From contig NC_092680.1 in NCBI RefSeq assembly GCF_964355755.1, positions 20,933,001 to 20,997,000 of the forward strand: a DNA stretch of 64,000 bases, in the 5' to 3' direction. The notes below the pieces were generated by a model that saw only the letters and a program-made list of their open reading frames with translations, made no database searches and was not told the origin of the DNA. The stretch is from Antedon mediterranea. Its lineage: Eukaryota; Echinodermata; Crinoidea; Comatulida; Antedonidae. The position numbers and the translations under genes are program-made. Positions 30,877 to 62,330 of this stretch are shown here, piece by piece; positions within the stretch are counted from its first letter, which is position 1, and every line of letters begins with the position of its first letter.

Positions 30877-31009
30877 CGTGTTCACACGGGGTCGTCTAAT
30901 TTCGAACGAAAGCAATTAGCATCTTTCTGTACAGTCTCCGCTCGTGTTCACACGACGGAATCGTCTAGTTTCGGACTAAGGCAATTAGCATCTTTTTGTA
31001 GTCACCGCT
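30877..31009 (-). repeat. tandem duplication of the annexin gene 1 terminal coding segment
   Basis: Two copies of a 66-67-bp unit, each starting CGTGTTCACACG on the plus strand. The upper copy (30943-31009) encodes the final codons and stop of annexin gene 1. The lower copy (30877-30942) lies past the stop and still spells MLIAFVRN then TAG when read in one frame, but small indels shift it relative to its start. It is therefore a relic in the 3'UTR. Confidence 0.8.
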
Positions 31010-34000
31010 CGTGTCATCTTTGATCCACTCGGACATCGGTTTGCCGTACATGCGCAAAAACTCCATTTTGGCTGTGCCGAGATCAATCTGAAAGTATTGA
31101 TAGAAAGCGAAATTGAATCAATATGAGAATAATAACATGACTCACAAAGTCATGCTTTTGAAGAAGATAACTTTACTGTTTTTAAACGTTGTTTTATACT
31201 GTTCCTCGTGACGTGTTGTGCTTGAAAAATGCAAAGCAAAAACATGCACGGACAATCACATGATATTCTGAAACTAAATATATAAAATACGTTATCTTCC
31301 CCAACCAATACGCACATTTGAAATAAATATTATGATCGAACGCATAACCCCCGCGTCTCGGACCCAATATTTCCGACACTTCTGAAGGAGCCCAGTTCCC
31401 TTGACCAAAAATACTAAATAATAAAATGTACCTCAGCGCGAGAGACAATACAACGGATCAGCTGCTGGTCCTTGGTTCCTGCACCTTGCATTGCGTCACG
31501 GATCCGTTTGGCGAAGTACGCGGGCGTATTACGCGCACATCCAACTAAAAATGGAGAAAAAGATATTTAAAAATAATATTCGAGTTATTAATAATCATCG
31601 TCTTCGTCACTTATGATCATTGAATCTCTAAATCAATGATCGAGTGAGTTTTGACTTAATATTAGTAAAAGATAAATATTTTGGCACGTATAGCGTTTCA
31701 TACGTATACTACTTAAGCTTGTAAACTCGGGATGTATTGCAGGACAAAATTCGAAACGCTGACTCAGTGGTGGACTAACATAAAAAATACTATAATATGT
31801 ATGAATGGATGTATGGAGCGCTGTCGTCATTATATCCGTATCAATTGTCAATATTGTCGCAATCGCAAATCATCGTTATTGAGTCAGTAATGGTTTAATC
31901 ATCTTTGTCACATTATTTTTTCTCATTATGTCGACATTGTAAACAGTCGGTTCTAGCGTACTTCGTCGGAATGACAACTTCAACATTGACTTCGATAGGT
32001 GCGAATAATAGTATGATTAGCTTACTGATGGCTAGGAATCCATCCTCTAAATCGCCAGATGTTTCACTCTTAATTGCTTCTTCTATTGTCTTCTTAGATA
32101 TCTGAAACCCAAATAATAAGTAACGACTGTCACAAAGCATAGTAACTATCAGTGTATCCGTTACTATCAGTATTACAAGAAGATTAAAATACTCACTCGT
32201 GAAAAACAAAAACCAAACAATTCGTTAGTTTCTAAACGATCAGAGATAGTATATTCCAACACTAAAGCTCTGTCTACACTATCAAACTAGTTTGACAAAA
32301 AAAGTGTGATGTGCTCAAATATGGTAGTAATATGACATCAATATGTCCTTATATAAGCATATCACATTTGTTTGTCACAAGAAGTTTTGAGCTTAACACG
32401 AAACCTACCTTGTCATAAGCATCGAATGTAGCTCTTAGTTGGGCAAAGCTTCTTGTTGCTAAGACACGCAGTATTTCAGATTCGTCCGTCCCCCATTTTG
32501 CTTCCCCAGCCTAAATGGTGTAAAGAAATCATCATCATTGATATAATTATTATTTTAATTAACCACTTTTATATTTAGTAAATGTCAGTAAACATTCAGT
32601 AAACCTGTTCTGCACCATGTTGTACAACTATGGCATTGGTACATCTTCACAACATAGTCATCTTTACCCTTTCTCCAAATATTGAAATGGTGTTATTGTT
32701 TTGGGGGTTGAAATTGTTGAAATGATAATGAAGACGGTAACCAATTATTGTTTATTTTTGTTTTGTATACCTTGTAAATGGCGTTGGCGTCCGCATTAGC
32801 TTTGCCCTCGTCGACGGTGGGGCTTTCATCTCTCGCAGCCTAAAATAAAAATATCATAATTTATTTCATGTAGGCCTGTTTTAAGAATGCTAAAACTCAA
32901 ACATGTTAAATCTGTATGGTTTCAACAATGTTAAGCACTTAATAACAGTCCTCCTACCCAATGTTAAGTTGTGTCTATACTATCAAACTTTGTGACAAAA
33001 GTGATGTGCCCATATATGGACATGATGATGTCATATAACTACCATATTTGGTAACATCGCTACCATATTTGGGCACATCACACAAGTTTGATAGTGTAGA
33101 CGAGCTTTAGTTTAGCAAACTGTTCGACATTAGCTGTTGGATTGTTCCGTTAGATATAACAACCATAACACAAACCTGGCAACATGAAACCATAAGACGT
33201 TTAAAGTGACCGCTAGTCTCACTCATTAGATCCTTTTCCAAATCCCGTTTAAATTCTGCAAAATAATTTACACAAAAACAATTTACTAATGCATGCGTCT
33301 GATAAAGCTTTTAACACAAATTACAAATATTCGACCATATTAATATATTATGTTATTCATTTATTGTGAATAATTTATTAGACTATTTTGTGTCAACTAT
33401 TATTGAGGCTTCTAAAAATTGTCCTGGATAATGGGGTTTAGTGTCAAAGATAGATTTATTCTAAAGCTCTGTCTACACTATCAAACTTTGTAACAAAAAA
33501 CGTGATGTGCCCATATATGGACATGATGATGTCATATCACTACCATATTTGTTCATATCACTACCATATTTGGGCACATCACATTTTTTTGTTACCACAT
33601 CCTGATTGAGAAGTAAGCCTGTTTACCTTTCTTGTAAGCTTCCTTTATGCTTTTGATTTCCTTTAAAAGAAAAAGATAAAATTAGCAAACTTTTAAACGT
33701 AAGTAAATAAAAGTCAATATGGAGGATATGATTATACTGTATGTTATAAATTACAAATTACCTGGTTGGTTCGTGTACACATTATCTCCAGTATAGCTTT
33801 CTCGTCAGTTCCAGCACCCTTGAAATAAATAACATTAAATGCTACCGGTACTTAGTATGACATTAGTTTCCAATGCTTTTGCCTATTAGGCCTACTACTA
33901 ATGTTTTAATTCCCTATAGAGTTTGTATTATGTGTACACAATGAATTAGTTTTTAATAGCCTTATCACTCATTATATATTGCGAGCAATCATAGATCATT

Positions 34001-37000
34001 CGTTAAAAAGTTCATTAACATTTTCGCTATTTAAGACTGCTTTGACAAAACACTTTCACATGATTGTAATCATTTAAGTAGTTTTATATCAGCTGCTGCT
34101 TTTACGGAATTTTCGAAAGCTTCTCTAACTTTCGTAAGTCCTTGATTGACACTGACATTATGATATTAATGTTGGGTTATTTTCTTTTGTTGTTGGCTCA
34201 TATAATATCTTAGTTTATTCTGTATTAACTGTACTTGAGTGAGTGCATAATCTGCTCTAGCCTATTCTCGCACTCATGATTAGGACTATACAAAATACAT
34301 TAGGAATTTCAATATTTTGTCACAATTAGCGTGCTATACCTTCATAGCTCCTCGTAGAGACTTGGCGTCGTAAAACGCCGGTTTATCGAGCAGTGCTATT
34401 ACAACATCCTCGTACTTTCCACCCAGCTCACTTTTCAGATCCTTTAAGAGGTCCTAAAATCAAAAGCAATCAGATTATGATTGATTTATATACCAGTAAA
34501 ACGTGGTTCCCACTAGAAGGAAACGCAACGTAACGCAGCGACGTATCGACGCAAAGTGCTTTATTGCGTAATCACAAGTGAGAACCTACGACACACTCAG
34601 TGCTGCAAACATCGCAGGTTTGATTCCACGCAGGCGGAGACGAACACAATTATTAGAAGGACATTTTCTTATGTTGTGTAGGTTTCGTTACGTTGCGTCG
34701 CTAATGGGAACCTTTATTACGACATACCTTGTACATACATGTATCACCACTTTTCTTGCAAGACCATACTTTAGTAGTGTATTAAGGTCGGACGTTTTAC
34801 TTGTAGTATACCGAATAACGTTTTATTACAAGTCATAACTATTAATGTTTTATTATAAAGCTCTAGTATTAGAACGCAACAAAACATGCACTGAAAGTAG
34901 AGCAGTTTTGTTATTCATAGCCTTGACGAAACAGGGACACTCGTTTCTGGATCTATGCTCAGCAGGCCTATGATACAGCTTCCCTCTTTACAGACCGTGT
35001 TTCCTTATATTAACTACTACCGTACCTCTTAAAGGCCAATTTACACAGACGAGCGGTAACGGTAAGCGGAAAACCGCGTAGCTTGTCATCTAATCTGTAT
35101 CTAATCCAGAGCGGAAACCGCCCGTCCGCTCCGCGTTTTGTGACGTAAATGGTCATAAGTAATAATATAGATTTTATATTGTACTACCGTTACCGCTCGT
35201 CTGTGTAAGATAGCCTTAAAGCTACAGTGCACACTATAATGTTCGAAACGAGAGACGGTGCTGTTTTGTTAAATAATGAAAAACATTACGATGAATTTGG
35301 CCTTTGGCGACGCGTCGTCTTCCGTTCCGTGAAACGGACTAGGATGAGCGTGATAACTATAGTACAGAATTCTAATCTATTAAGCCTACAGTAATACAAG
35401 TTATATTAGTCATGTGCCCCTATTATTGAGTATTGTAATTCAAACTATCATGTGACCACTTTCATTCTCTTAATGTTGTTCAGAGGTGAGAAATGTCACG
35501 TGAAATGTCTTGGAATGTAGCTCCAATTATTCCAAAAGAAAAAAATAAAACTTAAAAAGAAAGTAAATCTTACATCTTTCAATATTGTTTACCATTGTTT
35601 AATTATTATAGTGGTTTTTTTTTGGGGGGTGGGCGGGTTTCTTTTTTTACCTTTCCGTATGAGGTTTTGAAGTGAATCACAATTTCCTGTCTCTGAGCGT
35701 TTGATCTGAACGCCAGTATATCGGTAATCGCCTGTTCGTCCGTTCCTTAAAAAAATGTTGCGGAGAATTATTATGTTTTGTTACGTGTTCAACATTGAAT
35801 AGTAGGCCTATTCCTTGTTTTAGTTAGTCAGACATGCCTTACCGTGATATCTTTATAGCATGTACAGTTCATTCAAACGAAAACAATTTTTATTTAAAAA
35901 ACCGAACAATCTATAAATAAAACTAAAACGAACAATCTATAAATAAAACCAAAAGAAATACCAACAATCTATATAATTAAAAGAAAAACGAACGATCTAT
36001 ATAAATAAAAGAAAAACGAACGATCTATATAAATAAAAGAAAAACGAACGATCTATATAAATAAAAGAAAAACGAACGATCTATATAAATAAAAGAAAAA
36101 CGAACGATCTATATAAATAAAAGAAAAACGAACGATCTATATAAATAAAACTAAATGAAAAAACTACTAATCTATATAAAACTACAACACGTGACGTGAA
36201 CCAGGCACTTACGGACGGAAAGAAAATGCAAAATCAATTTAATAATAGTAAATAATTTCGTGCAAAAAAATTCCCATAAAACAACTGCACCGTATACATT
36301 ATGTATATCACTATACCCTATACAAAAATAGGGCTGTAGAGAAGTATGACCATTACTTAATGCATGACACATTACCAGCTGACTAACCTAATCCCTTCAT
36401 TGCTTTCCGTAATGCACCACAGTCCGCTTCCTTGTCAAAGCCAGCATAGCTGCTTACAGTTCCCTTTAAATAAACATGAAATAAATGTTAAAACTCCTCA
36501 TATTTCAGTATGTTATTGCATGAAGAAATTCTCTTCCATGACCCCAGTGTCATTTATTTTATTAAATATCTACAAAATGGTTTTTTTTTTTGAATGACAA
36601 TTAAAATGTTACTAATTATTCTCGTTTAAAATAGTTGTTTTTTTTTTGTTGGAAAGATTTGACATTTTGCTTCAGGTGTTACTTTATATTAAAGACCTCA
36701 AAAGAATGTTCACTCCATTTAGTTCAACTCAGAGGAATATTGTAGGTATAGGTCAATGGCTTAGGTTAGGCCTACTGTAGACAGTTCTAAGCCAGTAGTT
36801 TTGGCAAATGCACTCCTCCAGATAACTACCTCGGGATAACTAACCACGAAGGAGTGAACAAAACCTTTATTTATTTAGACGAGATGGCTTTGAATGTAGG
36901 CCTAAAGGTGGTGAGGCTCGTCTGATCTGTGCAAGAGATCAGAATAAAATCAGTGCATCACTATGCCAGGTATTGTGTCTTTTTTTAGCAATAGATAAGT

Positions 37001-39380: not shown

Positions 39381-42300
39381 CTATTCCTTTAAAATGGCAA
39401 GAAGGACGTTTTTGTAGTCTCCACTGCAATCGCCTTTTACAAACTTTTCAACTGTGTTGTTGTATTTCTGGATAAATTTCTTCTTTATTTGGTCAAGATC
39501 AATCTGAAAGAGTAAAACGTTTGATAGTGTTCATTTACGTTTTTTCCTGACGATAAATGCAACATAACGTAATCAAAAGATTTTTAATCCTTCCAATCTT
39601 CGAGCAACATGAACATGTGCTTCTATCGTATTTGGTTTTATATCATTGGACATCTGGGCCAAGGCATTGTTGAGTCGCTAAACAATTTGTGTTTTCTTCC
39701 AACACATTTTATAAACTTAATGTTTGAAACAGTGATGTGTAAAAGTAATTGTTAAAACTTGGGAACTTAAGATTCAATTAATTCTATTATTTCAAATATC
39801 CTTAGCACAATACAGAGGCCAGAATTGTATAAAGGTATAGGTAAAAAAATCCCACAAAATTAGATATTTGACGAGCAAAGCCGGCAGAATTAAACAAATA
39901 GATGAAATTTAAATATTGCACGTATTTGTTTTAAAATGTACAAATGTCAAGTTGCTCAAAGTTTCACCTACCTCGGATCTTGTTACGATAATGCGGATGA
40001 GTCGGTCGTCATCGGTACCAAGTCCCTTCATCGATTTGTACAAACCTTCGACGTAGTAATCGATTACGTCATTGCTAAATTTAGCTATGAATAACAAATT
40101 ATTGGTTACTATTTTAAATTTCGATTTTCAATTGTTAAGCACTAATTTAGAAACTAATTATATTATATTTGAGGAAATTTATTTGATCGTAGGTTATAGA
40201 TTGAAATTCATTTTTCAAAAGTAACATTTTTGTAGATATGACTCTCGAACTTTTGCTAATAATCATTTATTTTGTCCTCACCAATTGTCAAGTATCCGTC
40301 GCAAAGATCTCCAGATGTTTCACTTTTGATGACATCATTAATGTTTTTCTTGTGCGCCTGAAACAATTGAAAATACATTTTTTTACTACTTTTGTATCCT
40401 TTTTTCTTCAGGACCAACAATACAAAAATAAGAAATAAACTTCAAAAGCAGCTAACACAATTAGAAACTATTTAAACTGTTTCAGACTAATTAAAATTAA
40501 AATCCTAATAAGGTCAACAGCAGATTGTAACATACTTTTTCGTAGCCTGCAAAGACAGCTTTGAGGTGGGCGTGGCTTCGGGTTGCTAGGATACGGTTAA
40601 ATTCAGATTCGTCCGTGCCCCACTGGTCCTCACCAGCCTAGTAATTAATTAGTAAAATCTTTTATTAAATTATTTATTAACACAGCATAATATTTATCAA
40701 TATTTCATTTTTTTTATTATGGTTTACATAACACATTGAAATAAATAGATTGAAAAATAAAATAAATTAAAGCAAATACAAAATTCAAAGTTTACATTCT
40801 CTCTTTGGCAGAGCAAAATATCAGTTAAAATCAAAATGAAAAATGTCCAAATTACTATGCATAGGCCTACCTCAAACAAAGTTTTTACGTCTTGAACGAC
40901 TTTATGCTCGTCAACAACATCACTTTCATCTCTCTTAGCCTGTTTAACAAAAGAATAAAAAACATAGTTGATTAAACTTAAACAAGTTATTGTTATATTG
41001 TTGTAACAATATATATTATACGTATATGTTATCAGTTAACCAAAACCAATAAGAGTTATATTCTATTACCAGTATGTTAGAAATAATTGATTATTATAAA
41101 GAAATATTATTCTTATTTATAATTTTGAAAAAAAAATGTTACTTCACATGTTTGTACATAGATAACAAAAAAGCAAGATTGTTACTTCAAATTACTTTTA
41201 TTGTTAGCATAAATAAAATCAGACTTTAAAAAAAAGAATAAAAATATACCGTGCACATTGAGACCAATAGACGTTTGAAGTGACCGCTTGTATCGTCCAT
41301 TATGTCCTTCTCTAGTTCTCTATCGTAAACTAAAGCAAAAGAAAAAAGAAAGAAAATATAAAAATGTAAAAAAAGAAAGAAACAGTGTAAATGTTCAATA
41401 CAAGTTTAATTGATTTAGTTTACACCATCTGATTCTGTATCTGTCGCTAGATACTGTCTAACCGACTACTGCAAGTCAGTTAGATACATACATATCTAGG
41501 TGTATTACATATACTGTTATACAATTCATGTTGTCTCTGTCAGTAGGTTCTTGTGACAGCTGTATAGAATCAGCTGTGGAAGTGGCTAGTGGTACATAAC
41601 TTGTTGTATTTTGATCTATATTTAGATCCTTGTTGTATATTAGTTAATTATATGAATTATTTAAGAAGATCCTAAATACATGTTCGTCTTACATTAAGAA
41701 AGGATGGATGTAATTTTTAAAAATGAAACAAGAGCCAATCAAAGACGTACCTTTTTTGTACATTCCTTTTATAGCTGTAATTTCCTATAAATAGATTAAG
41801 AGATTATTACCAATAAGATGCGCATAGAGTATGTATATTAAGTATTTGGAGTAAAGCTCTGTCTACACTATCAAACTAGTTTGTGATGTACCCAAATATG
41901 GTAGTGATATCTCCAAATATGATAGATATCATCATCATGTCCATATATGGGAACATCACATTTTTTGTCACATAAAGTTTGATAGTGGAGCTTTCGAGTT
42001 CTCCTTGTTGACACCCCATTACATTAATCATAATAACATCTTTATTAATAAAGGGTTAAGATCGTATAATTTAATGAATCATGTTAACCAACCCATGTTA
42101 TTTTATTGCAAACACTGAACAGGTCAAAACGCGATGTCATAGTACTTGTGTAATTGTATTGCATCCGCCATAGTATTGTTCGATTATGATAAATACAGTA
42201 CTGGTAAATAGTAATACTTACTGCATTGCTTCTTGTACACATAATCTCAATCAGTACTCTCTCGTCTGTGCCAGCTCCCTAGTAAGTAAACAGTAAATTA

Positions 42301-45153
42301 ATTTATTTTACTGAACTACAATAGGATTGCAATAATGCATTGTTTAACTAAGTTATAGTGTTTTGATGTTCAAATATGCACGTTAAAAATGGTGCCGACT
42401 TTGTTCATATTGTGTCGGCCTACTTGTACGCACTGTGCATGTCACACCAGCCATGCAGCGTTATTACATCCACAACTTTGAATAATAATGTCGGAAAACA
42501 AAGGATACGCTTTTGAGACATGCGCATAAAGATCTGTCTACACTATAAAACTTTATGGTATGAAAATGTGATGTGCCCATATATGGACATGATGATGTCA
42601 TATCACTACCATATTTGGGCATACTACCACCATATTTAGGCACATCACACTTTTTTTGTCAAACTAGTTTGGACAGAGCTTCATGTTTGTGACGGTCGTA
42701 TTAATCACAAGCATATTAATTAAAAACAACAGTTTTACCGATATAGCCTTGTTGAGACTATGCACATCGTACTCGATCGGTGTCTGCATTAGTGCCAATA
42801 TTGTTTCTTCGTAGTTCCCACTCAGATCATCTTTAAGATCTTGTATCAAATCCTAATCACAATCCAGTGAGGTAATGATTAGTTTGTATTATTATTATCG
42901 ATAAATATACATAGCACCAACTGGCGTATGTTGAACAATAGAAAAATACGAACATAAAAAGAAACGACAGTTGTTGCCGGTACCAAGGCACAGCACTGGG
43001 TACAGAACAAAGACTAAACTGACATCGCCAAGTAAATGAAACTTATTGGGCGTGTGGGTATATAGAAAATAGGCTAATTCGCCTTTAAAGTGAAACAGTT
43101 TAATTTGGTTTCAGTGTATAACCAATAACACATACTAATAACAACTAACAACATTTGAATAATGAATTGAATAATCCCAAAAACATTTAAAAAAAATAAA
43201 AGCGTTAGGATAATCAGTGCTTATATCTACTCCGTTTCAGTATAATGATACTGCCCGTTCTAACTATGAACAAGATTCGCCTTCACGTCGATTTCGAATG
43301 TCACCAATGTTTTTTTTTGTCTTTGTCTATGAAATGTGTTACTTTTAAGAAGCATCTGCCGAATATAACTCACTTTTCCGTATGCTGTTTTGTACTGTTC
43401 CCGGATCTCTTGTCGTTGGGCATTGGTTCGGTTAGCAAGTATTGCTGATATCTGATCTTCATCGGTACCTATGTTTTAAACGTGGATCATTATTGCTCAT
43501 TTTCTTACATGAAATACATTTGTTCTCTTATATTGTGATTTTTGCCAATAGTTTGCATGCGCCTTTATTTAAAGTTGGAGAATTTATGAGGCTTACTGAA
43601 AAGAATTGGGTAACGCTATTAGAGTAAACCATTCTCAATTGAAAATCCAGATTAGACTATGTATTACTGTGGTAGTATTAGTAGCGTTTTTATATTTATT
43701 TAATTTAATTTGTCTCGTCATGTTGTGTTTTTGTGAGGGTCCCTAGTGATCAGCTTCGGCTGAATGAACCACCATCGTAAAAATATTGTTGAAATAGATA
43801 AATGAAAAATTTAATAATTATTGCTAACGAATAAGTCTAATGTCATGTCTTTTTCGATCTAGCGTCGTCTGATGGACCTCTCAATTTCTTTCTATCATGT
43901 CTATTTCTTCAACAGCAATCCATATTCTAAATCTTGTCTTCCAAAATGATCGCTTGCCCTAGGTTAGTCTCCAGGCCACCAGCTCAGACACTACTCTTCT
44001 CTCGGAATTTAAGATCAATGTTAATTTGCTGTACTTACCTAGACCTTTCATGGCATTCTTGAGAGCTTTTGCATCATCTTCCTTGTTGAACTTTGTGAGT
44101 GCTGATCGTATAGTACCCATTGCGCCCTACAAAATAGCAGAGTTATTACAATCTGATGTGTTTGATCTGAATTAGCACGAGAAATAGTCACCACTGAATA
44201 AACTACCAGCACAAATTGCGTGTAATTAACTACTATTTTTACATGTTTATATAGTTGATTGCAAAATGCATATGAATTGTTGACGTGGTCATTGGAGCCA
44301 CAGCTTACGAGTAGCATTGTGCACTGTGCGCACGTAAATCAACTTAAGTCATTTATGCACTCATGCGTGTATAAATTAGTAATAATTAGTAACAAACACT
44401 AATTCAGTTACGTCATTATCTCGAAACTTTAAATTGATGGTTTACATAACAATAAATGAATGTCGGTACCTGGCAATATTAGTATTTCATTCATGTATTT
44501 ATATATTCTTGTCTATATATATATATATACAAGTCACGTGACATGTCGTGTATTTAAATAGATAAATTAAATCGTGTTTTTAAGTAAGGACCCTACATGG
44601 AACCTCCCGATTTTTTTCGAAGTTATGCATTTTTGGCAAATATTTTGGAAACTCACAAATCGCCCACAACAAACAATCCGATAGTAAGCCCTGAAGTCGT
44701 CCACTAAACATACATCACCCATTAAGTAAACCTCAGTGGTCACAACCAAAAACCAAGCGCAGATCTCTCCCACGTAATCTTGAACATCACCAACAAGCAA
44801 ACTCACATCGACAAGACAATCTCCAATCGCTAAACCAAATTCGCATTGTAGTGCGCAGCTTGGATTTAACAAATAAGGCAACATTTTGTCTTATTTATCT
44901 TGGTATTACCATATTGTTGTTAGATTACGAACTAGTACCGGTAACTTACAATCTAATTTCAAGCTAAAAAATGAATTAAATAATTCCAATTCAGTTTGAT
45001 GAATTCAATATCATCCGTTATGGGTGAAGTTTATTGCGCGTACGCAGCCATGTCATCAATTTTCTAACGCGCGTTTTTCTTTTGCGTGTTAGGCCTATAC
45101 TAACACATAACTGTTACGGATATATATTTTTTGAAAATACCTACCTTGCTCAT
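39381..45153 (-). CDS. annexin, canonical four-repeat (gene 2 of the cluster)
   Basis: Calcium/phospholipid-binding annexin. Twelve exons: 45153-45145, 44126-44039, 43468-43374, 42852-42739, 42278-42222, 41784-41751, 41329-41250, 40939-40871, 40637-40536, 40357-40282, 40084-39972, 39503-39381; 960 nt, 319 aa. The first exon encodes only MSK. Calcium loops are intact in all repeats: KGLGTDE with DDLSG, GAGTDE with DDTSG, QWGTDE with SETSG, KGLGTDD with GDCSG. From exon 3 on, exon lengths match annexin gene 1 exactly (95, 114, 57, 34, 80, 69, 102, 76, 113, 123 nt). No signal peptide. A TATA box and CCAAT box sit just upstream of exon 1. Two family A MITEs lie in its introns. Confidence 0.96.
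41851..41994. mobile_element. MITE family A copy 8 (annexin 2 intron)
   Basis: Left end TAAAGCTCTGTCTACACTAT, right end AAGTTTGATAGTGGAGCTTT. Contains CCAAATATGG and CCATATATGG boxes. Located between exons 5 and 6. Confidence 0.8.
42527..42681. mobile_element. MITE family A copy 9 (annexin 2 intron)
   Basis: Left end TAAAGATCTGTCTACACTAT, right end AAACTAGTTTGGACAGAGCT. CCATATATGG is at 42577-42586. Located between exons 4 and 5. Confidence 0.8.
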
Positions 45154-46787: not shown

Positions 46788-49700
46788 TCACATCTCCTCC
46801 ATATTTGCAAGCGGTACCAATAGTTGTGCGCATGCTCCGTGATAGTGCGCTTCAATATCCTCTGCCAGGTTTCTGTTGTATATCTCCCGATATTTGAGCA
46901 CAATCTGGCAAAGATTGACCTAAGAAGATAAACAAAATTTATTTATATGTTACTCTTTTAATTTAAAGAAATACAACTATTTTTTAAAAATACAAAATAA
47001 ATGATTAAAACATTTATTTTTTTTAAGCGATTGCATAATAGTCAACATTTATCAATGAATTGATAAGAAAGTAGCCTACAAGTGTATAAATAACACTATT
47101 TTCACGTGATCTGTCTCACATTTGAGTTACAACTAAATAGGCCTTATGTTACAATGTGTATTCATGTTTATCGGATGTTGTAACTATAAAACTACATTTT
47201 TCTGGCATCAAAGAATGGTGATATTAATGTCATTTTTAGAAAATGTATGTCCAGTCGCAATGTCATATTTTCTCCATGGTTATTGTTAGTCAACACGCTC
47301 GTGGTGAACTCGTGTCATCAGACAACATGACGTCACTTTACTGGTATCTCGCAGCCAGCATATCATATAAATTATTCACAGCTATTCTGCAAGCTCATTA
47401 GTTATTCACAGAACAATATAAAACCATCTATGACCTATAAAATTAATAATCCTTTTGAAAATGCATATGATTCATAAGCATACAACTGTTGATTTGAATA
47501 TAGTGTTATTATGCATTATGTTGATTTCAACAATCTAAAAATTGCGACATGAATAAACGAAAATTTACAAATTATTTGTTGTTGGGACTAATAAATAATG
47601 TGCAAACTTTTTTCCACTTGGATAACTATTCATTTCAAAAGCTTTGCATATTTATGATTTTTTTTTTTTTAATAAGGTCACCCTTTGAATCTTAATGTGT
47701 TCGTATAGCTCGTTTATATAATCAAACCGCGAAAAACACACTTTTTAAATAAATCGTACAAAATTATAAATGTTGAAGGTTTTTTTTGCCTATCTGGACA
47801 TTGAAGTGTTTCTTCAAATAATAATAGCAGAATTTAAGCCTAATACAGGTCAAATTAGCAGTTTGACGAGTACCTATCTCTTGTATGTTAACAATAGTGA
47901 AAACTCATGAGGTAGATTTTTCTAAGCACACTTGACGTCCCAGCATTTTACGGCGATGGCTCTACGGCGATATCGTAAATTTCGCAACAATTCGTTGTCA
48001 AATGATTCTCGGAAACATGTTTATATTGATGATGGTTAATTAAAATGAAAGAAATTAACATTAAATTAAAATATACGTAGAAAAATGATTGTAATGAATT
48101 GCCAATGGTCTGTAATTTAGAAAGCTATCATCAGTTGTACCTTTGCACAGTTTACCAGGGTAGTTTCAACAGCCTCTTCGTCCAGGGTCGTATCTGTGGC
48201 TAATCCAAGAGAAAAGAAGAGTTTCACGGCACAAAACTTGGCTTCATCGGTAATATAATCAGCTAGGTGAAAATCAGAAACATGTTTTTTTTTAATGTTG
48301 ACACTCCGACAAACATAATTTGATACGTAAAGCTCTGTATACACTATCAAACTAGTTTGACAAAAAAAAAGTTTGATGTGCCCAAATATAGTAGTGATAT
48401 GCCCAAATTCGATAGTGATAGGACATCATTATGTCCATATATGGGCACATCACATTTTTTTGTCACATAAAGTTTGATAGTGTAGACAAAACTTTACACG
48501 ATACAAATGAGATGGGTGCGTCCCAACCCGGTCCCAACATAAAGAACACTTCCCAGAATTCTCATCCCAGATTTAATGATTTATTTATTTATGAACTATA
48601 TAGTTATTATTAAATACATTATTTGACTTTTTAACTAAACTTCGCCTTAATGATGTTTTATATTTGTATTAGAAATACCTACCTATGTTTAAGAAACTCG
48701 CCTGTATGTTTCCTACCATCTTTCGTTTTATGTGGTATTGTATCCACCGGCCATACGTCTATATAAAAATGTATTCTAGATTTTGTAAGTTTTGTATTTT
48801 CTTAACCTTTGTTGTCTCTTAAATGTTTGTTTTTGATAATAAATTGGGAACAAAAAACGAAAATGTATTATTTTTTGTATTATGATAAATTAATTGAAGG
48901 CGTTTTTCATTTCAACCATTTAAGTTAAGATATCAGTTATTTATTGACCACACCTATGATTTAACGGTATAATAAGCTGACCTCGATCGGCGTATAATAA
49001 GCTGACCTGGATTGGCGTATTAATCGTAAATCGTATTATTAATTGGTGGCGTTTTTTAAAATAGTAAATCTATCTCCTATGATGAGTAAATGTTTGTTTA
49101 GTCTATTTTCCACACTAAGCGAATATATTCGCGCGAATTGTTCTCTGGTTTGTTGCGCATTTTCCGATCACAAAAAAATATATTTACACATAAATACGCA
49201 TGCGCACAATCTGATTTGTGTGATTTGTAGTAAAGATGTTTCGCATACTATTTCGTAAATTAAGTTGTAATCGATTTAGGCGCATACCAAACAAACGAAA
49301 AGATACAATTTTCTAGAAATTACTTTTATTGTATAATTTTATCAATGAATTTTATGTTTAGCAACTTATTTGTTAACAAGTTGACTTTTTGTTCATTGTC
49401 ATTAAGTCATTAACACTTACTATTTTATATTGGTTGAACACATCGTTGAGATGTGTTTTATCATGGGCGCCCAGAAGTCGTAATAACTCGCTTACATCAG
49501 AAGAAAATACAGCCTAAATAAAATGTTAAATATAATGTGCTCTTGTTAAAATATAATAGTCTACTTAAGGACTGTATGAAAATAAAATGTTATAAACATT
49601 AGGTAACTAGTTTGCACAACTTTGTTTACACTACTGATAATATTAAACACTTTTTCATAATGTAATTATAACCATAACATAACAGTTTTACCTGTCGAAG

Positions 49701-52157
49701 AGTGTAGGTGTCGCTCTCTACGTTCTCAGCTTTTACCACACCATTTTCATTTCTCTGAGCCTACAGAAGAGCCACAACACAAGAAAATACGATATGATTG
49801 ACAATAACCTTGTACTATTCTATCATTCTGTGAACGTTTTTGAAGGAAAATTGCACAAGTATCGGTCAAATAAGGACTTTAATACCATTCTGCGCTTCAA
49901 AGCATAACTGACTGTGGGTCACAAGAGGCAAATTAGCCTATGTAAGTATTTTGCAAAACACATCCCATCTACGAACGCACATCCCTACTACGCGAAATGA
50001 AAACCTAAATAAGTATGAAAAAGAAGTCTGCACTTACAGATGCAAGAGATCTTAAGACATTCTCTTCATCGCCACTAAATCCTTTCACCAAAGCTTGATC
50101 TAACGATTCGCTGGTATCTAAAAATAACAACGTTCTACAAAATAGTCATATTGCTCCTATACTCCTCTGTTCGAAATGTAGACGTTATTTAATTGATCAA
50201 CAATAAACTCACTTTGTAGGCCCATATTAACAGTTACCTAATTCTGTTCTGATTCCTCTAATATAAAATATATAAATCTTTTTCTTCACTGTCGAGCTTC
50301 ACTTCTTAGTATTCACTTAAGTACTTACCAAGTTTATATTGTTGTTGAATACGTTGAATTTCCTGTTAAAAATCAAAATAAGTCGTAAGATAGAAATAAT
50401 ATAAGTATAGTAATAATAATATCACCAAACCCAAACCATTATTAGTATGTCAACGCAATTTTCCCACCAATTTTAAGTTATGTTACAGGTGCCCCCTCGC
50501 GTGGGCTTGTTTCAAGAAAAACCCAGCAATAGAATACATTCAACATGATGTATAATAAAACAATTAAACAAAGAATATAAAGAAAATGATTATCATTAAA
50601 GCAATACATAAGTCAGCATTCATCTTTTTTTAAGTACCAGTTTACCTCATTGTCATTTGTGATGAGTAGTGCGCTTGCGCGATCAGAGTCTTCGAGAAGT
50701 ATGGATCTTTTCAGAGACTTTGTCACGTGGTCGGTTGTTCCGCCAATCAATGACGCCCAACAATCAGTTGCTATAATTGGAAATGCTTCTGACAAATCTT
50801 GCAAAAGATTCTGAAACAAAGATTTCATTTTGAGAACAAAGTAAAGGTTCCTTCTTTTCATTTATTGTCTGTTTATAGTTTCAGTTTCAGTTTCAGAAAG
50901 CATTAACCGATTAACATAAACATTTTTTCTATTTCTTCTTCTGTATTGACATCCATCCACTGCTCCTTAGTATTTGTATGTATTTACTTTTCTATTTGTT
51001 GTTTTCTCTTTCTTTTCTTTCTGTAAGCCAACCTTTTTGCTTTCTCCTTTTTTCAGATATTAATAAAATCCTCTGCGAATCTCTTAATTTATGTGTTTCT
51101 CCGTCTAATTCGTATCTTTTCTAGATCAACTCTCTTCCCTTGTTGAAGAGAAAATCTTGAGTGACGGAGTAGGCCTACGGTCTTCTTGTCTCAATCTTTC
51201 ACTCATATTATTTTCTCCCAAGAGATCATTATTGTGGTTACACCAATGTAACCTCTAATCTACGTCCCACACTCGCCTCTTCCATTATATGTTACTTACC
51301 GAGCCATAGGCCGCTTGGTAATATTTGCTTATACTCAGTCGGTCCGTGGCGCTACCCCTTGACACATGCGCAGCTACTGCCGTAACATTTGGTTCTTTTA
51401 TCACAAAAAGTAAGGAAGGAGATGCGTATGGTTATTTTTAGATCAATATTTAAAATTATAATTTACTGTTTGGTTGGATGGTTTTCACGTATAATCGTAG
51501 TAGGCCTATTCAGATTTTAATTTGCCAATTTTTATTTGAAATTTAACCTGAAATCACTAGATCTACATCCTAAGTGCCGCTTTTAAATATTATTATTATT
51601 TCTGCGACACGACTCATTGACAACAGCTTACCAATGGATAATACTTCCGATCTTATAGTTTGAATGATCACATCGACATCTGACTGTGGTATTGAGCACT
51701 AAAAATAATTTACAACATAAACTATTGAATAACGACATAGACAATTAATGTAGGCCTACTGTATTCGTTCTCTTACTGTCCTATTTATTTTTTTTTACAA
51801 AAGTAGTTGAAAGAACAGAAGTGAATTAAAAGAGGCAAGAAAAGTGTATCTTCAAAAGTCACAATTACTCCAAATCATCATCATGATGAATCAACCACAT
51901 TGCTGTACACTAGTCCCACAATCGAATAACAACTTATACAATACCTGGTATACTCTATATTCAGCAGTCGACACATTACAAGGCGGTAATTCACCCGTAC
52001 AAGCATCGACGTCTTGTACTTCTCGTACTCGATATTCTTGGGAGTTGTCAACGCATAACGCCCATTGTGTCCAGGAGTAACTTTCGCATCTCGCATGGCA
52101 TTTATAAATACATACAGATTGTATTAAAACAAAATATAAAGCGCGTGTAAGAAACAT
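46788..52157 (-). CDS. secreted thrombospondin-type-1/annexin-like protein (gene 3 of the cluster)
   Basis: Eleven exons: 52157-51945, 51698-51632, 51394-51300, 50810-50646, 50362-50329, 50117-50038, 49760-49692, 49513-49421, 48758-48683, 48262-48141, 46919-46788; 1146 nt, 381 aa. Exon 1 encodes a hydrophobic start (MFLTRALYFVLIQSVCIYKC, probable signal peptide) and a short TSR-like segment: W29xxW32xxC35, R43xR45, C53 and C60. Exons 2-11 follow the annexin exon series with the same phases (67, 95, 165 = fused 114+57, 34, 80, 69, 93, 76, 122, 132 nt), so the core is an annexin by descent. The calcium loops are gone: no GxGTD motif, with SLGLATDTT in repeat 4 and a 9-nt shortening over the repeat 3 loop. 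N-glycosylation sequons occur at N61 (NVS) and N96 (NVT). AGCTATAG just before the ATG could be an acceptor for a 5'UTR exon. Likely extracellular; function unknown. Confidence 0.85.
48327..48497. mobile_element. MITE family A copy 10 (annexin-like 3 intron)
   Basis: Left end TAAAGCTCTGTATACACTAT, right end TTTGATAGTGTAGACAAAAC. TAAAG and CTTTA at the edges. Contains CCATATATGG. It lies about 65 bp upstream of the exon starting at 48262. Confidence 0.8.
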
Positions 52158-54397: not shown

Positions 54398-57300
54398 ATG
54401 ACAGACTTATTAGTTCCTGATACTCCAGCAGGTCAGATGTCGAATAGATGGCAAGACGAGGAGATGGTAGAGCCGTCTTGTTGCGGTCCTGTTCGTCCAA
54501 AGATTAACACTACTCCTATTAAACTACACAGCATTGTGTACATCGTCTGTGGAGTTTTGTCAATTGGATTGGGCATTGTAGCTTGTGTGCTTGATTGTAC
54601 GTTCAAAGGATTGTCAATCCCAGCTGGTGTTCTGGTAAGGAAAAATGAATTTCCATAGTTTATTTAACTAAACATCATGTACACCAGCCAGCATGCCATA
54701 CTGGGCGAGACTACCATGTGTAGGTAATAGTTAATATTGCTGATTTGTTAACAGCTCAAATGGTCACATAAGAAATTTTCTAACCATGAGGTATACAATT
54801 GTCATTTTATACTGCCAAGTACTAACTAACATACTGTAATGTGAACATTAACAGAAACAAATCTGTGAAGAAAAGTATATGTTTGATTTTAAGGTGTAAG
54901 TTATACTGTAATGCCAATTGAATTAAATTCAATTGAAGAACATTGGCTTAGATTCATTCAAATAATGTAACAACACACCATGTATGCAAAATAATGCATA
55001 TACAAGCTACAATGTAATGCTTTCTTTTTTCTTTATAGCTTATTAGTACTGGTGTTGTTGGACTGATTGTTAGAAAACATGGAGTGCTGGTACAGTACAA
55101 TGATCATTATTTGCATTTGTTAAAAAGAATAGTATTGTCCATTCTCAGTCAAGTTTGGATTTATTTTTAGGGAGTTAAAGGGAGTAGAGACTTGGGTGAA
55201 TAGAGAAATAAAACAATACTTGGGTAGGAGGAAGACCTTAAAATAGGCTTTAGGGTGGATGAAACTCTCATCACCAACCACCCCCAACAGAATTACTCTA
55301 TAATCTTTACTTGATTGTAGAAGTATATGCTTATGTCTTTACCAAGTGTGCGCCCCCTACCCCAACAATTTTATAGCCATGTCTTTTTAAAATAATATAA
55401 TGAGTATTTTTTTATTTCTGCAACCCAACTGATAGATTTTATAATATGAAATGTTGAGCCCCTAATCTAGAATGCTGGATCTGCCCTTGTTTACTATCAT
55501 ACAGTAGTAGATTATGAATAAATAATGCTTTGGCTCTAAAAGTTTGATTTTATTGTGAATCAAAATAATAATATGAAATTTGTTAAATTACAGGCAATTG
55601 TCTATGGATGGTTAAACCTGTTTTGCTTTGGTTATGGTCTTACCCTTCTTGTTTTTATGATGATTGCTCTTCCTTTAAGAGAGGGTAACTGGGAGGAGTT
55701 TTGTTCAAGTTATGATTGCAAGTATTGGTATACTGATGATGGCTGTTGTTACGATGAAAAACTCAGCTTAAAGGTATTGGTTAATAATTATAATGCCAAG
55801 CATCTAATAGTAGCCTGTCAGAAATCACCTTCACTAGTGAGATAAGCGTGTGTGAATAAAATTCCCAAAGTAGGTTAAGAATATATTAGACAGATATTGA
55901 TTAATTATTAACTCCAGGTAGGGTAATATAAAAACAGGGATTTAATGAGAAAATTTACATTTTTGTTTTCTGTTTGAATCCAATACAGTAGTTGACAGTT
56001 TTTTCTGTAATACATTAATAATCATGACAATACTGCTATGATATAGAGAGTAAGCTGTATTATGTTTAATAGTGTTCAGGGCAGACCACTGTACATCTGC
56101 TTTTGGTTCTTCCAAACATTTGTAGCATTATTCTTACCAGATAGGTATAGTCCTGACAGATAGTATTGTCAGTACCATTTGCTCGATTCTCTCATTAATG
56201 AGATATTGTACAAGAGACACAAATCATTGTATTTACTGTACAACAATATGCATGACCTACAGTACAACTATCCATCTTCGCTAACATAGCTCTAAAATGT
56301 TTTTTTTTTCTTAGTGGGGGAATGTTTTGATTGATCTTGGAATCCTGGTTGTTGGTGTTATCGTCATGGTTACATCATTAGCAGCTGGTACTCTTAGTTT
56401 ACGTGACCTGAATTGGGTCAAACTCTGCTGTTTGAAAAAGAATAGTTTGGTAAATTCCTCTTACTTATTTCAAATTCAAATATTTTCAAAAACTGCACAG
56501 TAAAATTAGACACATCTAAATATTTACATTAATCATAACAAGAATAGAAATAAACAAAATAAATTGGCTTGTATCACAATTATCAAGTGTTCTAATAAAA
56601 AACTTCTAATTAGAAACACAAAAAAATTTAAAAAATCTCTCACACACTTTTTTTAATCGGAAACTCTTCCAAAATCGGAAACTCTTCCAAAATCGGAAAC
56701 TCTTCCAAAATCAGAAACTTTCTTAAAATCATAAATTTTCCTAAAATAAAAAAATATTCTAAATCAAAAAACTTCTTTCTTATTTTTGTTTGTGTTTATA
56801 CTGTAGCAAGCAGGACAAGTTGTTGTTCCATCCCAGTCTTCTGGTAAGAGTACACAATTCAAATATTAAGCAGAATGTTGCATATCTCAATTGTATTGAT
56901 TTTCTCATCTTTACCATTTAAAATTAATTGATATCTAGTATATCACTGGGCAGTTTAGAATTTCTTTTATGTCATATATTTGTAACAATATAACAATTAA
57001 TATTATTATCATTAAGATTAACATAAGAACAATGAAATATTAATTATTAAATTATATCATGTGCTATGTATAGAGACAGAATTAGAACCTAGTGGTCAAT
57101 CATCATCATCATCATCATCTTTCATGAAGCAATGTTGGACACCATGTGATAGTAATGGTCATCGTAATGCCACTATCATCTTAAGTATCATCCACATCAT
57201 TATTGGGGTCATCAGTGTTGGACTTGGAATAGGAGCATTAATTGTTGAATGTAGATATGCTCATATTGGAATGCCAATCTGGACAGGAATACTGGTAGGA

Positions 57301-60018
57301 ACATTAGTATGATATTATAACATCAATTACCTTAGCTTATGTCAAAGAGCATTTCATCTTAAAAACCCACATATTTTATATTTTTACTGCCAGTGTCAGT
57401 AGAGTCCCGTTCACTACTGGACATTTAAGACATTTGATCTTCATAGATCTTCATAGATCTTCATAGATCTTCAAAGATCTTCATAGACTACAAATTTGAA
57501 ATAATTAAGAGTAAATTACAAATTGCATTCAATTTGTTATCTTTTTTTTATGTTAAGGAAACCTAAACACTTATTGAATATTTACTTTGAATATTTACTT
57601 ACAGATATTTATGGTGACTGGTTTTTGTGGATTTCTGAGTACCACAGAGAAAGGGGCATATGTAAGTCACTTAGATATTAAAACTAAACATTTTGACATG
57701 CTGTTCTGTCTAAAATCAAAGTTCTTTGTTGGATATTCACTCTGTATGTGTTTATTTTTCACTTGTGTATCTTGTATCCAGTATCCTATGTTTAAATCTC
57801 TGTCTACTCTATCAAACTTTGTGACAACAAAATTTGATGTGCCCATATATAGACACGATGATGTCATATCACTACCATATTTGGGCACGTACATCACATT
57901 TTTTGTCAAACTAGTTTGATAGTGTAGACTAAACAACATAAAACATCATCTTCTTTCAGATTCCTTGTTTCTTAGCCTTCTCTGTTTTAGCATTCATTAT
58001 GTCTATTAACATGTTTACCTGGGCAGCTGTTAATATTCCTGCAGAACCAGATTGCGCTCCAAAATGTTTTAAATGGTGTACTGATGATACTCAAAACTCA
58101 TATAACTCGTATAGGTATAGTACACCTGATCCTAGAAGATACTGCTGTGATCTTGGTGAAACTTGCATTGCCAATACAGAAGCGGTAAGGCTATTTAGTT
58201 GTAGATGTTAATTTTGAATTACTTTGTTTGAAAATATTTTAATTAAAATGTTTACTTTCCACAATAAAAGAGTTGGACAAGACCTCCTTCATCTGGGTGA
58301 TGTTGTGGATATGAATTAAAATTCCAGGGTGGTTGTTAATATTTAAAAAATAAACCTACTACCATATAAGGACACATTATTTGAACCTAACACTATATAA
58401 GGACGCATTATTTTAACCCACAACAAATCCACTCCCAAAGACTTGTAATAAGACTTGTTTATGTAGAGCATCTTGTATATGTTTGTCTTAAGATAAGATA
58501 AGATAAGATAACTTTTATTGATCCTCAAAAAGGAAATTCATTGCTCGTCATAATAACAAGAAAACACAATAAAAACAAATATAGCATAAAACCATTCATA
58601 TAAAAACATCAAAAATACAAGATAAAATTATCTTCTTGACTTTCTATTGTACTGGATGATACCTGTCTTGTGAACAGGATTGCCACTAAAGAAGGATAGT
58701 GAATGAATTTCTGGTTATCCTTGGAAATTTGCCTAAATATAGAAAGAGAAAGAGATAAGTACACATTATTTTATTGTATTAACTGATAAACTTCATTTTT
58801 TTTTTGCAGGTAGTTATAGACTGTTTAATTGTTGGATTTGGTATTTTGGAGATGTTCGTTTGCATGGCAACGTTTGGTCTGTCTTTTTCACAACTTAGTT
58901 GTTACATGTGTTGCCATAATGGGTGTTGCTCTAATTGTAAATGTGTTGAAACTCAGGTAAGTTTATTTATATATATCATTCTTAAAATTGGAAGACTAAT
59001 AATGAGGGATAGGAAATATGTATGGAGTTGAAACACCATCTTACTCAGTTACTTTGTAGTAGAGATTAGCTTAGTGGTTAGTGTACTTGCCTTCCATTCC
59101 GAAGGTATAGGGTTCAATCCTGACCAGGGTGTAACTCACAACTGTTTCTACTCCACCACCTAGTTTATCCATCTTGTAATTTGCGAGAAACTAAACTAAA
59201 AATTCACTTGTAAGATAAGTTTACTAAATAATAGTCAAAACAATGTGGTGTATGATTTGGTTATTGTTTTTTTTTTTTAACTATTATTTTAGACCTCACT
59301 AGTTCACATGAGGTGTTCCTGTCACAGAATTTGACCTATTACTATAACCCAGGTGTTAAGAAATTCATTGTGAGGTGCAAGTCATTCCCCTTTCGATATG
59401 GCTACATTATTTTTAAAAGTAACTGTACATTCCATATATTCCAATTCCAATGATTTTTGTAATTTTCATATGCTCGTAATAACAACAATTTTGTTTTTTC
59501 TTTTTCAGACCAATACTGCATACCAAATGGTGATGACAACCGATGGTAACCTGATGATGGTACCAGTACCAATTACACAGCACGGTATGACACCTTCCTT
59601 GGTAAACAACCAACAGATGATACCTCAACCAATGGTGATTCCTGCTAATCAGAATCAAACATCAGGGTCTCCTGTCCAGCCAAACATAGTTGGAGGACAG
59701 TTGCTGGTCCAAGGGAACCAACCAATGATGTTTCAAGGAAATACACAGCCAATGATTGTAGTTCCTGGTCAAGCTCCAGTGTTTGTTCAAGCAAATAGAC
59801 AGCCAGGAATTCAGCAGCCAATGGTTCCAGGCATGAGTCAGCAGGTTCAAAACCAGATGCAACAAAAGAACCAACCAGCGCCACAAAGTCAGCTAACCAA
59901 CCAGACAGCTAGCACACAGGTCCAAGCAGGGTCACTTCCACATGGAGTTGAATCGCCTGCTGTGGTCAGCGAAGATGCTAACCAAGGCATTGAGGTTATT
60001 TCAGACCCGACCGTCTAA
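54398..60018 (+). CDS. tandem CD20/MS4A-like eight-helix membrane protein with Gln/Pro-rich tail
   Basis: Ten exons: 54398-54634, 55039-55089, 55594-55773, 56315-56449, 56807-56843, 57074-57294, 57605-57661, 57960-58184, 58810-58956, 59509-60018; 1800 nt, 599 aa. Residues 1-201 and about 214-430 are two homologous units, each a four-exon set (helix 1, helix 2, helix 3 plus loop, helix 4). Both have a Gly-rich first helix (IVYIVCGVLSIGLGIVACVL; IIIGVISVGLGIGALIVEC) and a second starting IP(A/I). Unit 2 helix 2 (PIWTGILIFMVTGFCGFLST then TEKG) closely resembles the CD20/MS4A signature. The loops between helices 3 and 4 share C-(2)-W-x-TDD and a CC pair (CKYWYTDDGCC; CFKWCTDD then YCCD). The tail (431-599) is rich in Gln, Pro, Met and Asn. 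The units join through a short exon (56807) with matching phase. They could instead be two adjacent genes. Function unknown; MS4A proteins act in signalling and chemosensation in vertebrates. Confidence 0.82.
56649..56735 (+). repeat. 18-bp short tandem repeat (double-CD20 intron 4)
   Basis: Three clean copies of AATCGGAAACTCTTCCAA with further decayed copies (AATCAGAAACTTTCTTAA). It lies in the intron before exon 5. Confidence 0.8.
57437..57487 (+). repeat. 10-bp short tandem repeat (double-CD20 intron 6)
   Basis: AGATCTTCAT repeated about five times, with one CAAAG variant. Confidence 0.85.
57792..57932. mobile_element. MITE family A copy 12 (double-CD20 intron 7)
   Basis: Left end AAATCTCTGTCTACTCTATC, right end CTAGTTTGATAGTGTAGACT. 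It ends about 27 bp before the exon starting at 57960. Located between exons 7 and 8. Confidence 0.8.
58493..58660 (-). mobile_element. LINE/SINE 3' end, antisense (double-CD20 intron 8)
   Basis: A (AAGAT)n run at 58493-58511 followed by AACTTTTATTGATCCTCAAA and AAGGAAATTC looks like the reversed 3' terminus of a retroposon whose tail is the pentamer array. No coding part is present. Confidence 0.45.
59056..59180 (+). mobile_element. tRNA-derived SINE fragment (double-CD20 intron 9)
   Basis: A-box-like TTAGCTTAGTGGTTAGTG and B-box-like AGGGTTCAATCCTGAC at tRNA-like spacing, followed by a non-tRNA body (CAACTGTTTCTACTCCACCA). It differs from the SINE at 25037. No intact cloverleaf, so not a tRNA gene. 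Confidence 0.65.
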
Positions 60019-61339
60019 ATTCAATTAACAATGTTGCGACAAAAATTTCTCAAAATAATCATATCATATATATATATATTAGAAATGAATTACAATACAA
60101 ATTAGGATTTTTATAATAATGTATACGTACGCACAGGTTATCCACGGTGTTGTAGCTGATAAAATGATCAGATCAGGGCCATTAGTTGATTGGGCACCAA
60201 ACAAGATAAGATTATTAGATAAGTCAAATTTTAACAATTTGAAGTATAGAGGAAACCCAAACAGGACATACATGAGGTATTGGGGAAGAATTTAATGTTA
60301 ACATTTTGTTTAGCAAATAGTGCTAATCTGATTGAGTCAAGAAACATAGGTTTTTGTATTGTATTATTTTGCTACACAATTTTAGAAATGTGTAGCAATA
60401 AGTTTGTATAGGTTTTTACTATGATACACTGGCGAAAAATATTCCCTGCGCTTGGTATGTAGTATATTTTGTGTTTATAATACAGTAATCTTAGTATTCC
60501 CTGCGCTTGGTATGTAGTATATTTTGTGTTTATAATACAGTAATCTTAGTATTCCCTGCGCTTGGTATGTAGTATATTTTGTGTTTATAATACAGTAATC
60601 TTAGTATTCCCTGCGCTTGGTATGTAGTATATTTTGTGTTTATAATACAGTAATCTTAGTATATCGCATCAAATGAATTTTAGACATAACTGAAAAACTG
60701 ATTCAATTGTGTTCAAGTGAATGTATTTTCATGGAATACTCCTATTTATTTCCTGTGGAAAGAAAGATGAGAAATAATATACAGTATCATTACCATCATA
60801 GTCAACCGATATTTAGTGCACCAAACAGTAAATTTTTACAGTAAATTATCAGTTTTTTAAAAAGATGTGAAATTGAAAGAAAAGGTTTTTTTTTTTAACA
60901 AATAGCTCTAATTAAAATAAGTACATGATTGTAGTTCATCCTCTTGTCTATTCTGATCTAATAATAATGTGCAGTATCCAATATTTGTAACATTTCCATT
61001 TTGTATTTTTAAAGTTTTGGTACATTTAAAGAGTTCTATTTTTTAGTATGCTATTTTAACTTGAATTATATTATATAATGTGTAATTTTAGAGAAGGCAT
61101 TTAGACCTGTTGGTGCTTGGAACAATTTAATCTGTTATATATTATACTAAACCCACATAATAATGTATACATAGCTCTATTTTCAGTATTCTTGGAAGCT
61201 TAGATTAATATAAACCTGACAGTATACATGTTTTGTAGTACTAAACAAGATTGTTTTTGATGTAAGGAACTCCAAAACATAGGGTAGTTTATTGTAGTGT
61301 AGTGTTGTATCCTCAGTTAGCTTTCCTTAAACAAATAAA
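60019..61339 (+). other. probable 3'UTR of the double-CD20 gene
   Basis: AT-rich and non-coding. The first convincing AATAAA that I see is at 61334-61339, about 1.3 kb past the stop, so the 3'UTR may be long and include the 55-bp repeat array at 60441. A shorter 3' end using a variant hexamer cannot be excluded. Confidence 0.4.
60441..60660 (+). repeat. 55-bp tandem repeat, 4 nearly identical copies
   Basis: Unit starts ATTCCCTGCGCTTGGTATGT and ends ATACAGTAATCTTAGT. Copies start at 60441, 60496, 60551 and 60606 and are practically identical, so the expansion is recent. It lies 420 nt after the double-CD20 stop, probably in the 3'UTR. Confidence 0.95.
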
Positions 61340-61613: not shown

Positions 61614-62330
61614 TCATGCTCTTATACTATTACATGCTCTCTGCACACCATGCTCTTATGCTCATTCCTAATTCTCGTATACTCATTCTTAATGCTCGTA
61701 TACTCATTCTTAATGCTCTTATACTCATTCTTAATGCTCTTATACTCTTTCTTAATGCTCTTATACTCATTCTTAATGCTCGTATACTCATTCTTAATGC
61801 TCTTATACTCATTCTTAATGCTTTTATACTCATTCTTAATGCTCTTATACTCATTCTTAATGCTCTTACTCATTCCTGATGCTCATTTTTAGTCATGCTC
61901 TTATACTCTTTCTTAATGCTCTTATACTCTTTCTTAATGCTCTTATACTCATTCTTAATGCTCGTATACTCATTCTTAATGCTCTTATACTCATTCTTAA
62001 TGCTCTTATACTCATTCTTAATGCTCTTATACTCATTCTTAATGCTCTTATACTCATTCTTAATGCTCTTATACTCATTCTTAATGCTCGTATACTCATT
62101 CTTAATGCTCTTATACTCATTCTTAATGCTCTTACTCATTCCTGATGCTCATTTTAAGTCATGCTCTTATACTCATTCTTAATGCTCTTACTCATTCCTG
62201 ATGCTCATTTTAAGTCATGCTCTTATACTCATTCTTAATGCTCTTACTCATTCCTGATGCTCATTTTAAGTCATGCTCTTATACTCATTGTTAATGCTCT
62301 AATACTAATTTCTTAATGCTCTAATATTCT
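61614..62330 (+). repeat. 21-bp minisatellite with nested higher-order repeat
   Basis: Core unit ATGCTCTTATACTCATTCTT plus A, about 20 or more copies with CGTATA and TTCTTTC variants. The right part is reorganised into a longer repeat: one full unit, ATGCTCTTACTCATTCCTG, then ATGCTCATTTTAAGTC, recurring at about 56-bp steps near 62161, 62217 and 62273. Because 21 is a multiple of 3, long repetitive open frames run through both strands, but they show no gene features. Confidence 0.95.

Follow-up and report, generated by a model that had tools for sequence, protein, structure and literature searches.

In the feather star Antedon mediterranea, the third gene of an annexin cluster (gene 3) probably encodes a classically secreted protein with a signal peptide, one thrombospondin type 1 repeat (TSR), and a four-repeat annexin-fold core. 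Gene 3 lies on the minus strand at 46788–52157 of the window, the 64-kb stretch of DNA analyzed here, on contig C11 of a 354-Mb genome in 18 contigs. By the same reading, which is probable as a whole, the family began when a duplicated annexin gene acquired TSR exons at its upstream end, in a crinoid ancestor or earlier; the former membrane face is non-binding; and the core serves outside the cell as a rigid platform to which proteins or glycans bind, with the TSR tethering it to matrix or cell-surface glycosaminoglycans. The first-pass annotation had proposed an annexin scaffold behind a leader, with the calcium-phospholipid sites lost, and this proposal is supported by an orthologue in a second genus, a fold prediction, and two paralogues; the exon structure, the loss of calcium loops, and conserved cysteines and N-glycosylation sequons were also established for gene 3. 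It seems quite likely that crinoids, and perhaps other animals, hold a founding class of annexins secreted through the endoplasmic reticulum (ER), in which glycans and disulfides replace the calcium-phospholipid face, the core sits on one to about 45 TSRs, and the annexin scaffold has become a module for recognition or for the extracellular matrix.

Gene 3 was re-derived exon by exon and compared with two ordinary annexins of the window (genes 1 and 2) and two paralogues elsewhere on C11 (genes 4 and 5). It has 11 exons and encodes 381 residues; all 10 introns are GT-AG, and the phases chain without an internal stop. The junction of exons 1 and 2 (51945 to 51698), the gene ends, and the 381-residue length given in the first-pass annotation were all reproduced. 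Exon 1 (213 bp, 51945..52157) encodes the leader (about residues 1–22, 52092–52157, by hydropathy) and, as judged from comparison with Anneissia japonica and from invariant TSR positions, the TSR from C24 onward with a sequon at N61. Exon 2 (67 bp, 51632..51698) opens with the codon for C72, the last TSR cysteine, and then begins annexin repeat 1, entering in phase 0 and leaving in phase 1 as in genes 1 and 2. Exon 3 (95 bp, 51300..51394) continues repeat 1, with a sequon at N96 where the GxGT loop would sit. Exon 4 (165 bp, 50646..50810), read as a fusion of 114 and 51 bp, carries the end of repeat 1 with C142 and the start of repeat 2; its counterparts are a 168-bp exon in gene 4 and separate exons of 117 and 51 bp in gene 5. 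Repeat 2 continues in exon 5 (34 bp, 50329..50362; 34 bp in genes 1–5) and exon 6 (80 bp, 50038..50117), and exon 7 (69 bp, 49692..49760) links repeats 2 and 3. Repeat 3 occupies exon 8 (93 bp, 49421..49513), where the calcium loop is shortened and lost, and exon 9 (76 bp, 48683..48758; also 76 bp in genes 1, 2, and 5). Repeat 4 is encoded by exon 10 (122 bp, 48141..48262), with C308 and C336, and exon 11 (132 bp including the stop, 46788..46919), with C342 and C368. An exon 3 acceptor at 51376, which gave a 375-residue model, was rejected. Because alignment with the A. japonica orthologue (P0001) showed 6 residues missing from that model, the acceptor at 51394 was chosen; it restores exactly those 6 residues, and an EPNVT/DPNIT match to P0001 supports it.

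The core of gene 3 follows the exon plan of ordinary annexins. Gene 1 (core exons at 30968..36463) and gene 2 (39384..44117, calcium loops intact), both on the minus strand and both spans given without the first exon, have core exons of 76/79, 95, 114, 57, 34, 80, 69, 102, 76, 113, and 120 bp; the gene 1 protein is identical over 312 residues to the database entry "annexin A7-like [Antedon mediterranea]." With the 165-bp exon taken as 114 + 51, gene 3 agrees with gene 1 in frame at 11/11 core exons and in exact length at 6/11, which bears out the earlier claim that its exons track those of annexins in order, phase, and mostly in length. The 57/34 split is common to genes 1 and 2, and gene 3 has the matching 34-bp exon. 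The Pfam annexin family (PF00191) matches the spliced protein in four stretches (E = 3.4e-22) and is the sole domain above the cut-off; weak matches to DUF7516, Ring_hydroxyl_B, and Ribosomal_L27_C fell below it and were disregarded. Gene 3 was absent from the 31 matches of a whole-genome scan with PF00191, in which 60 candidates were scored, because its single exons are too diverged. The predicted structure of the gene 3 protein has an annexin fold, in keeping with the repeats claimed for it.

A search of 5.8 billion proteins, in which 3,920 word-sharing candidates were scored, returned P0001 ("annexin A4-like [Anneissia japonica]," 381 residues) as the sole match, with 61% identity over 99% of a 375-residue gene 3 query; one existing TSR-annexin record is filed merely as "annexin A4-like." A profile of gene 3 and P0001 run against the same set also found only P0001 at E ≤ 10 (7,255 word-sharing candidates), and because this search needs shared 5-residue words, absence from other echinoderms is not shown. 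The sister-genus orthologue is not leaderless: P0001 has a leader of the same kind, and a leader that is hydrophobic in both proteins (by hydropathy only) and followed by a TSR argues against a cytosolic location. The two proteins share the segments WTQW..C, EYRVRE, DAC.., and PCN as well as the junction residues, YQ before and CSI after the intron. All 10 mature cysteine positions of gene 3 are also cysteine in P0001, and both sequons are conserved (N61 and N96 in gene 3, N61 and N97 in P0001). Conservation of exon 1 is on a par with that of the remaining exons, with 40/69 aligned residues identical; by segment, identity is 9/23 in the leader, 32/47 in the TSR, and 196/307 in the core. Gene 1 and its A. 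japonica orthologue (P0003) are 86% identical, and gene 3 therefore evolves faster. That pace, together with the fact that no A. mediterranea record of gene 3 was returned from the protein database, is what would favor gene 3 being a relic that is still secreted but decaying, on its way to becoming a lineage-specific pseudogene; yet all 11 exons are open, the splice sites are intact, and the cysteines and sequons are kept in full between the two genera, so that decay appears very unlikely. Gene 3 (46788–52157) may be missing from the public annotation. Because the P0001 and P0003 records both report a contig of 985,037 bp, the annexin cluster appears to be syntenic in A. japonica.

The paralogues were reached through a weak P0001 match (E = 1.4e-4 within the fetched loci) to an annexin cluster at 2.90 Mb on C11. 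When the whole genome was searched with P0001, 11 candidates were scored; eight of the ten matches at E ≤ 1 are 8 of the 11 gene 3 exons in the window, and the other two are gene 4 (E = 0.21) and gene 5 (E = 0.83). Genes 4 and 5 stand head to head. Gene 5 (C11:2890154–2895160, minus strand, 12 exons, 608 residues) encodes a leader, three TSR motifs separated by an acidic Gly/Asp linker from a fourth, and then an annexin core. Gene 4 (C11:2896201–2908197, plus strand, 12 exons, 2,859 residues) begins with a single 7,557-bp exon 1 (L019:2102–9658) that encodes a leader, followed by 45 TSR-type motifs of the form W-x2-W-x(1-2)-C; the final motif is part of a TSR completed in exon 2. Exon 2 runs in phase 0 into the annexin exons, and the TSR and annexin halves are therefore one gene; the TSR-to-annexin join falls at a phase-0 intron in both paralogues. 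Against the core exons of gene 1, genes 4 and 5 keep frame at 11/11 (the 168-bp exon of gene 4 taken as 114 + 54). By Pfam, gene 4 exon 1 matches TSP1_spondin in 27 stretches (E = 9.4e-87), and the last TSR plus annexin part matches annexin (E = 2.2e-17, two stretches passing alone) and, under the cut-off, TSP1_spondin (E = 0.00032). Gene 5 matches annexin in four stretches (E = 2.9e-18) and TSP1_spondin in two, under the cut-off (E = 5.2e-6); its last TSR alone has no Pfam match. In a phylogenetic tree, the four TSR-annexins lie on one side of a branch with values of 91/97 (not starred), and gene 3, P0001, and gene 5 group at 100/98, or at 100/99 when gene 4 is left out. The A. mediterranea genome thus contains three or more genes of this family, gene 3 among them.

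Local profiles found no further TSR-annexins within 10 kb of either end of the window or within 30 kb of either end of the cluster at C11:2.88–2.92 Mb. This second annexin cluster (about C11:2883064–2920239) surrounds genes 4 and 5 with three or more ordinary annexins, which lie on both strands. Exons with other TSR types occur just past its last ordinary annexin (L010:9456; L024:786 and 2349), and no annexin exons follow them within 30 kb. On another contig, a strongly diverged annexin locus (C10:5704000–5713900; L011, about 5600–9600, minus strand) has loops that look degenerate, and the 19.8 kb examined there contained no TSR motif; the locus is possibly another calcium-independent annexin.

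The first-pass annotation described a leader followed by a W-x2-W-x2-C, R-x-R, and C-x6-C segment. All of these elements were found, as W29-x2-W32-x2-C35, R43-x-R45, and C53-x6-C60, but the "half-TSR" is a whole TSR, as the last cysteine is C72, the first residue of exon 2. The full pattern is present in gene 3: a cysteine before the tryptophans, WxxWxxC, RxR, and then three cysteines. C24, W29, W32, C35, R43, R45, C53, and C60 are invariant in 32 TSR rows (gene 3 exon 1, 28 of the 45 gene 4 units, and 3 of the 4 gene 5 units), and C72 completes the exon 1 TSR in a four-row alignment. Against a TSR profile, the TSR of P0001 alone scores 17.5 bits, the alignment of gene 3 and P0001 reaches 83.6% with a score of 27.2, and that of gene 3, P0001, and gene 5 reaches 95.7% with a score of 39.4; the best of 60 column shuffles of this three-row set scores 16.6. 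A Protein Data Bank (PDB) search with a profile of the gene 3, 4, and 5 TSRs matched thrombospondin-1, properdin, and F-spondin, whereas a PDB search with a 52-residue N-terminal piece of P0001 gave nothing at E ≤ 10. A separate listing includes an entry that by its title describes semaphorin-5A TSRs with sucrose octasulfate, a heparin mimic. An alignment that combined TSR fragments with P0001 in full length put the fragments in the wrong place and was discarded.

The calcium loops are lost in all four repeats of gene 3, as had been claimed: the GxGT loop is missing in 4/4, and so is the acidic ligand (Asp or Glu about 38–40 residues on). N-glycosylation sequons number exactly two, as had been noted, N61 and N96, and N96 falls where repeat 1 formerly had its calcium loop. 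Within 6 alignment columns of that loop, 3/4 TSR-annexins (not gene 5) have a sequon versus 0/48 ordinary annexins, and a glycan at N96 would occupy the place of the loop. A secreted TSR-annexin could instead bind lipids or other ligands extracellularly without calcium, as an opsonin-like or antimicrobial factor of the coelomic fluid, and not act as a structural scaffold. The secreted architecture fits such a binder too, and the TSR could restore a lipid-recognition role, given that the TSRs of BAI1 are reported to bind phosphatidylserine (PMC9723945); with all four calcium loops gone, a sequon on the former membrane face, and no domain besides annexin above the Pfam cut-off in gene 3, we consider this unlikely.

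P0001 and gene 5 both have counterparts of the cysteines at gene 3 positions 72, 142, 308, 336, 342, and 368, whereas in ordinary annexins these positions are cysteine in 0, 6, 0, 0, 0, and 0 of 48. In the core alignment gene 4 has the counterparts of C142 and C368 only, and these are the two core cysteines present in all four TSR-annexins; they may form a pair linking equivalent positions of repeats 1 and 4. The last TSR and core together hold 10 cysteines in gene 3, P0001, and gene 5 (split 5 + 5 by alignment) and 8 in gene 4 (6 + 2). Because the TSR is one cysteine short and an odd core cysteine is present, a disulfide between the odd TSR cysteine and the core is likely. The whole mature proteins of gene 3, P0001, gene 5, and gene 4 contain 10, 10, 36, and 357 cysteines, with leader cleavage points set by judgement.

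Several observations weigh against the proposed secreted family. Gene 3 is a model read from genomic sequence, and no A. mediterranea gene 3 protein was among the matches in the 5.8-billion-protein set, though that of gene 1 was returned. The exon 1 TSR by itself has no Pfam match and scores 11.5 bits against the TSR profile, where shuffles reach 11.0 (its own 1000) and 11.8 (all 2000); the TSR fold model was built on the TSR alignment and hence is not independent. Being read from genomic DNA, with an exon 1 that Pfam does not recognize, gene 3 could be a gene-model error in which exon 1 comes from another transcript and exons 2–11 are a degenerate cytosolic annexin. This is most improbable, however, as the P0001 record from a second genus shows the two parts already combined, and residues flanking the junction are conserved to its left and right; genes 4 and 5 have the same join at a phase-0 intron, and C72 of exon 2 completes the exon 1 TSR. 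Among the paralogues, gene 4 retains one acidic ligand and the core of gene 5 is without any sequon. The total of core cysteines is not raised (6, 6, 6, and 2 versus a median of 5); it is by conserved position that they stand out. The mature count for gene 4 is odd, and the parity argument is therefore valid for the last TSR plus core only. Finally, genes 4 and 5 sit on very long branches, and two tree rows are odd in composition, so architecture and exon phases outweigh the tree.

For the secreted TSR-annexin, we envision the following sequence of events. The gene 3 protein would enter the ER, where its leader would be cut before the first TSR cysteine, and would fold with disulfides, C142–C368 stapling repeats 1 and 4 and the odd TSR cysteine bonding to the core. 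On the former membrane face, at the lost repeat-1 calcium loop, N96 would bear a glycan; that face would be non-binding, and the core would offer proteins or glycans a rigid platform outside the cell. The TSR may anchor the protein to glycosaminoglycans of the matrix or cell surface or to receptors, and the long forms (genes 4 and 5) may carry this module on a stalk with more TSRs. The family could have arisen when an annexin gene was duplicated and a copy gained TSR exons upstream, in a crinoid ancestor or earlier.

Elsewhere in the window, minisatellites lie at 16487–17011, 23454–24114, 60440–60662, and 61650–62346, with units of 26, 55, 55, and 21 bp; the 26-bp and 21-bp arrays hold repetitive long open frames. 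An open frame on the plus strand at 57022–57312 has a weak CD20-like match below the cut-off (E = 0.022). Scanning the window for tRNAs and, at the gathering threshold, for Rfam families gave no matches.

That annexins lack signal peptides, as the first-pass annotation stated, holds as a general rule: a 2024 review describes ordinary annexins as cytosolic and without a classical signal sequence, and heads their exit from cells "the great conundrum" (PMC10882027). The rule has predicted exceptions in the cyst nematodes Heterodera schachtii and Heterodera glycines, for whose annexins SignalP-predicted signal peptides are reported (PMC4388550); Hs4F01 is described as a secreted annexin-like effector (PMC5632807). 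Among papers listed for secreted annexins with signal peptides, one mentions transgenic mice expressing a secreted form, and none concerns a TSR-annexin. Like gene 3, the effectors Hs4F01 and Hg4F01 have annexin domains behind a predicted signal peptide (PMC4388550); unlike gene 3, they have four conserved annexin domains by conserved-domain search, and the excerpts mention no TSR. In partial listings of titles and abstract openings from the open-licence PMC literature we found no description of a TSR-annexin, in line with the earlier statement that the annotator knew of no described family with this architecture, and the combination of TSR arrays with annexin did not turn up there.

In feather stars, then, members of a normally cytosolic family seem to have moved outside the cell. 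The annexin fold has seemingly gained disulfides, a glycan, and the usual route of secretion, and has dropped calcium-membrane binding, and the gene 3 family is a natural test of what that fold can do apart from membranes. ANXA9 and ANXA10, the calcium-insensitive vertebrate annexins, resemble gene 3 in having lost type II calcium sites on an annexin fold; to our knowledge, they have no signal peptide or TSR. The gene 4 TSRs, through their TSP1_spondin match, are like those of the TSR-array proteins F-spondin, SCO-spondin, properdin, and thrombospondin, in which we know of no annexin domain. Ordinary annexins of the AnxA2, A4, A6, and A7/A11 type bind calcium through GxGT loops, whereas gene 3 has a leader, a TSR, and cysteines at new positions, and none of those loops.

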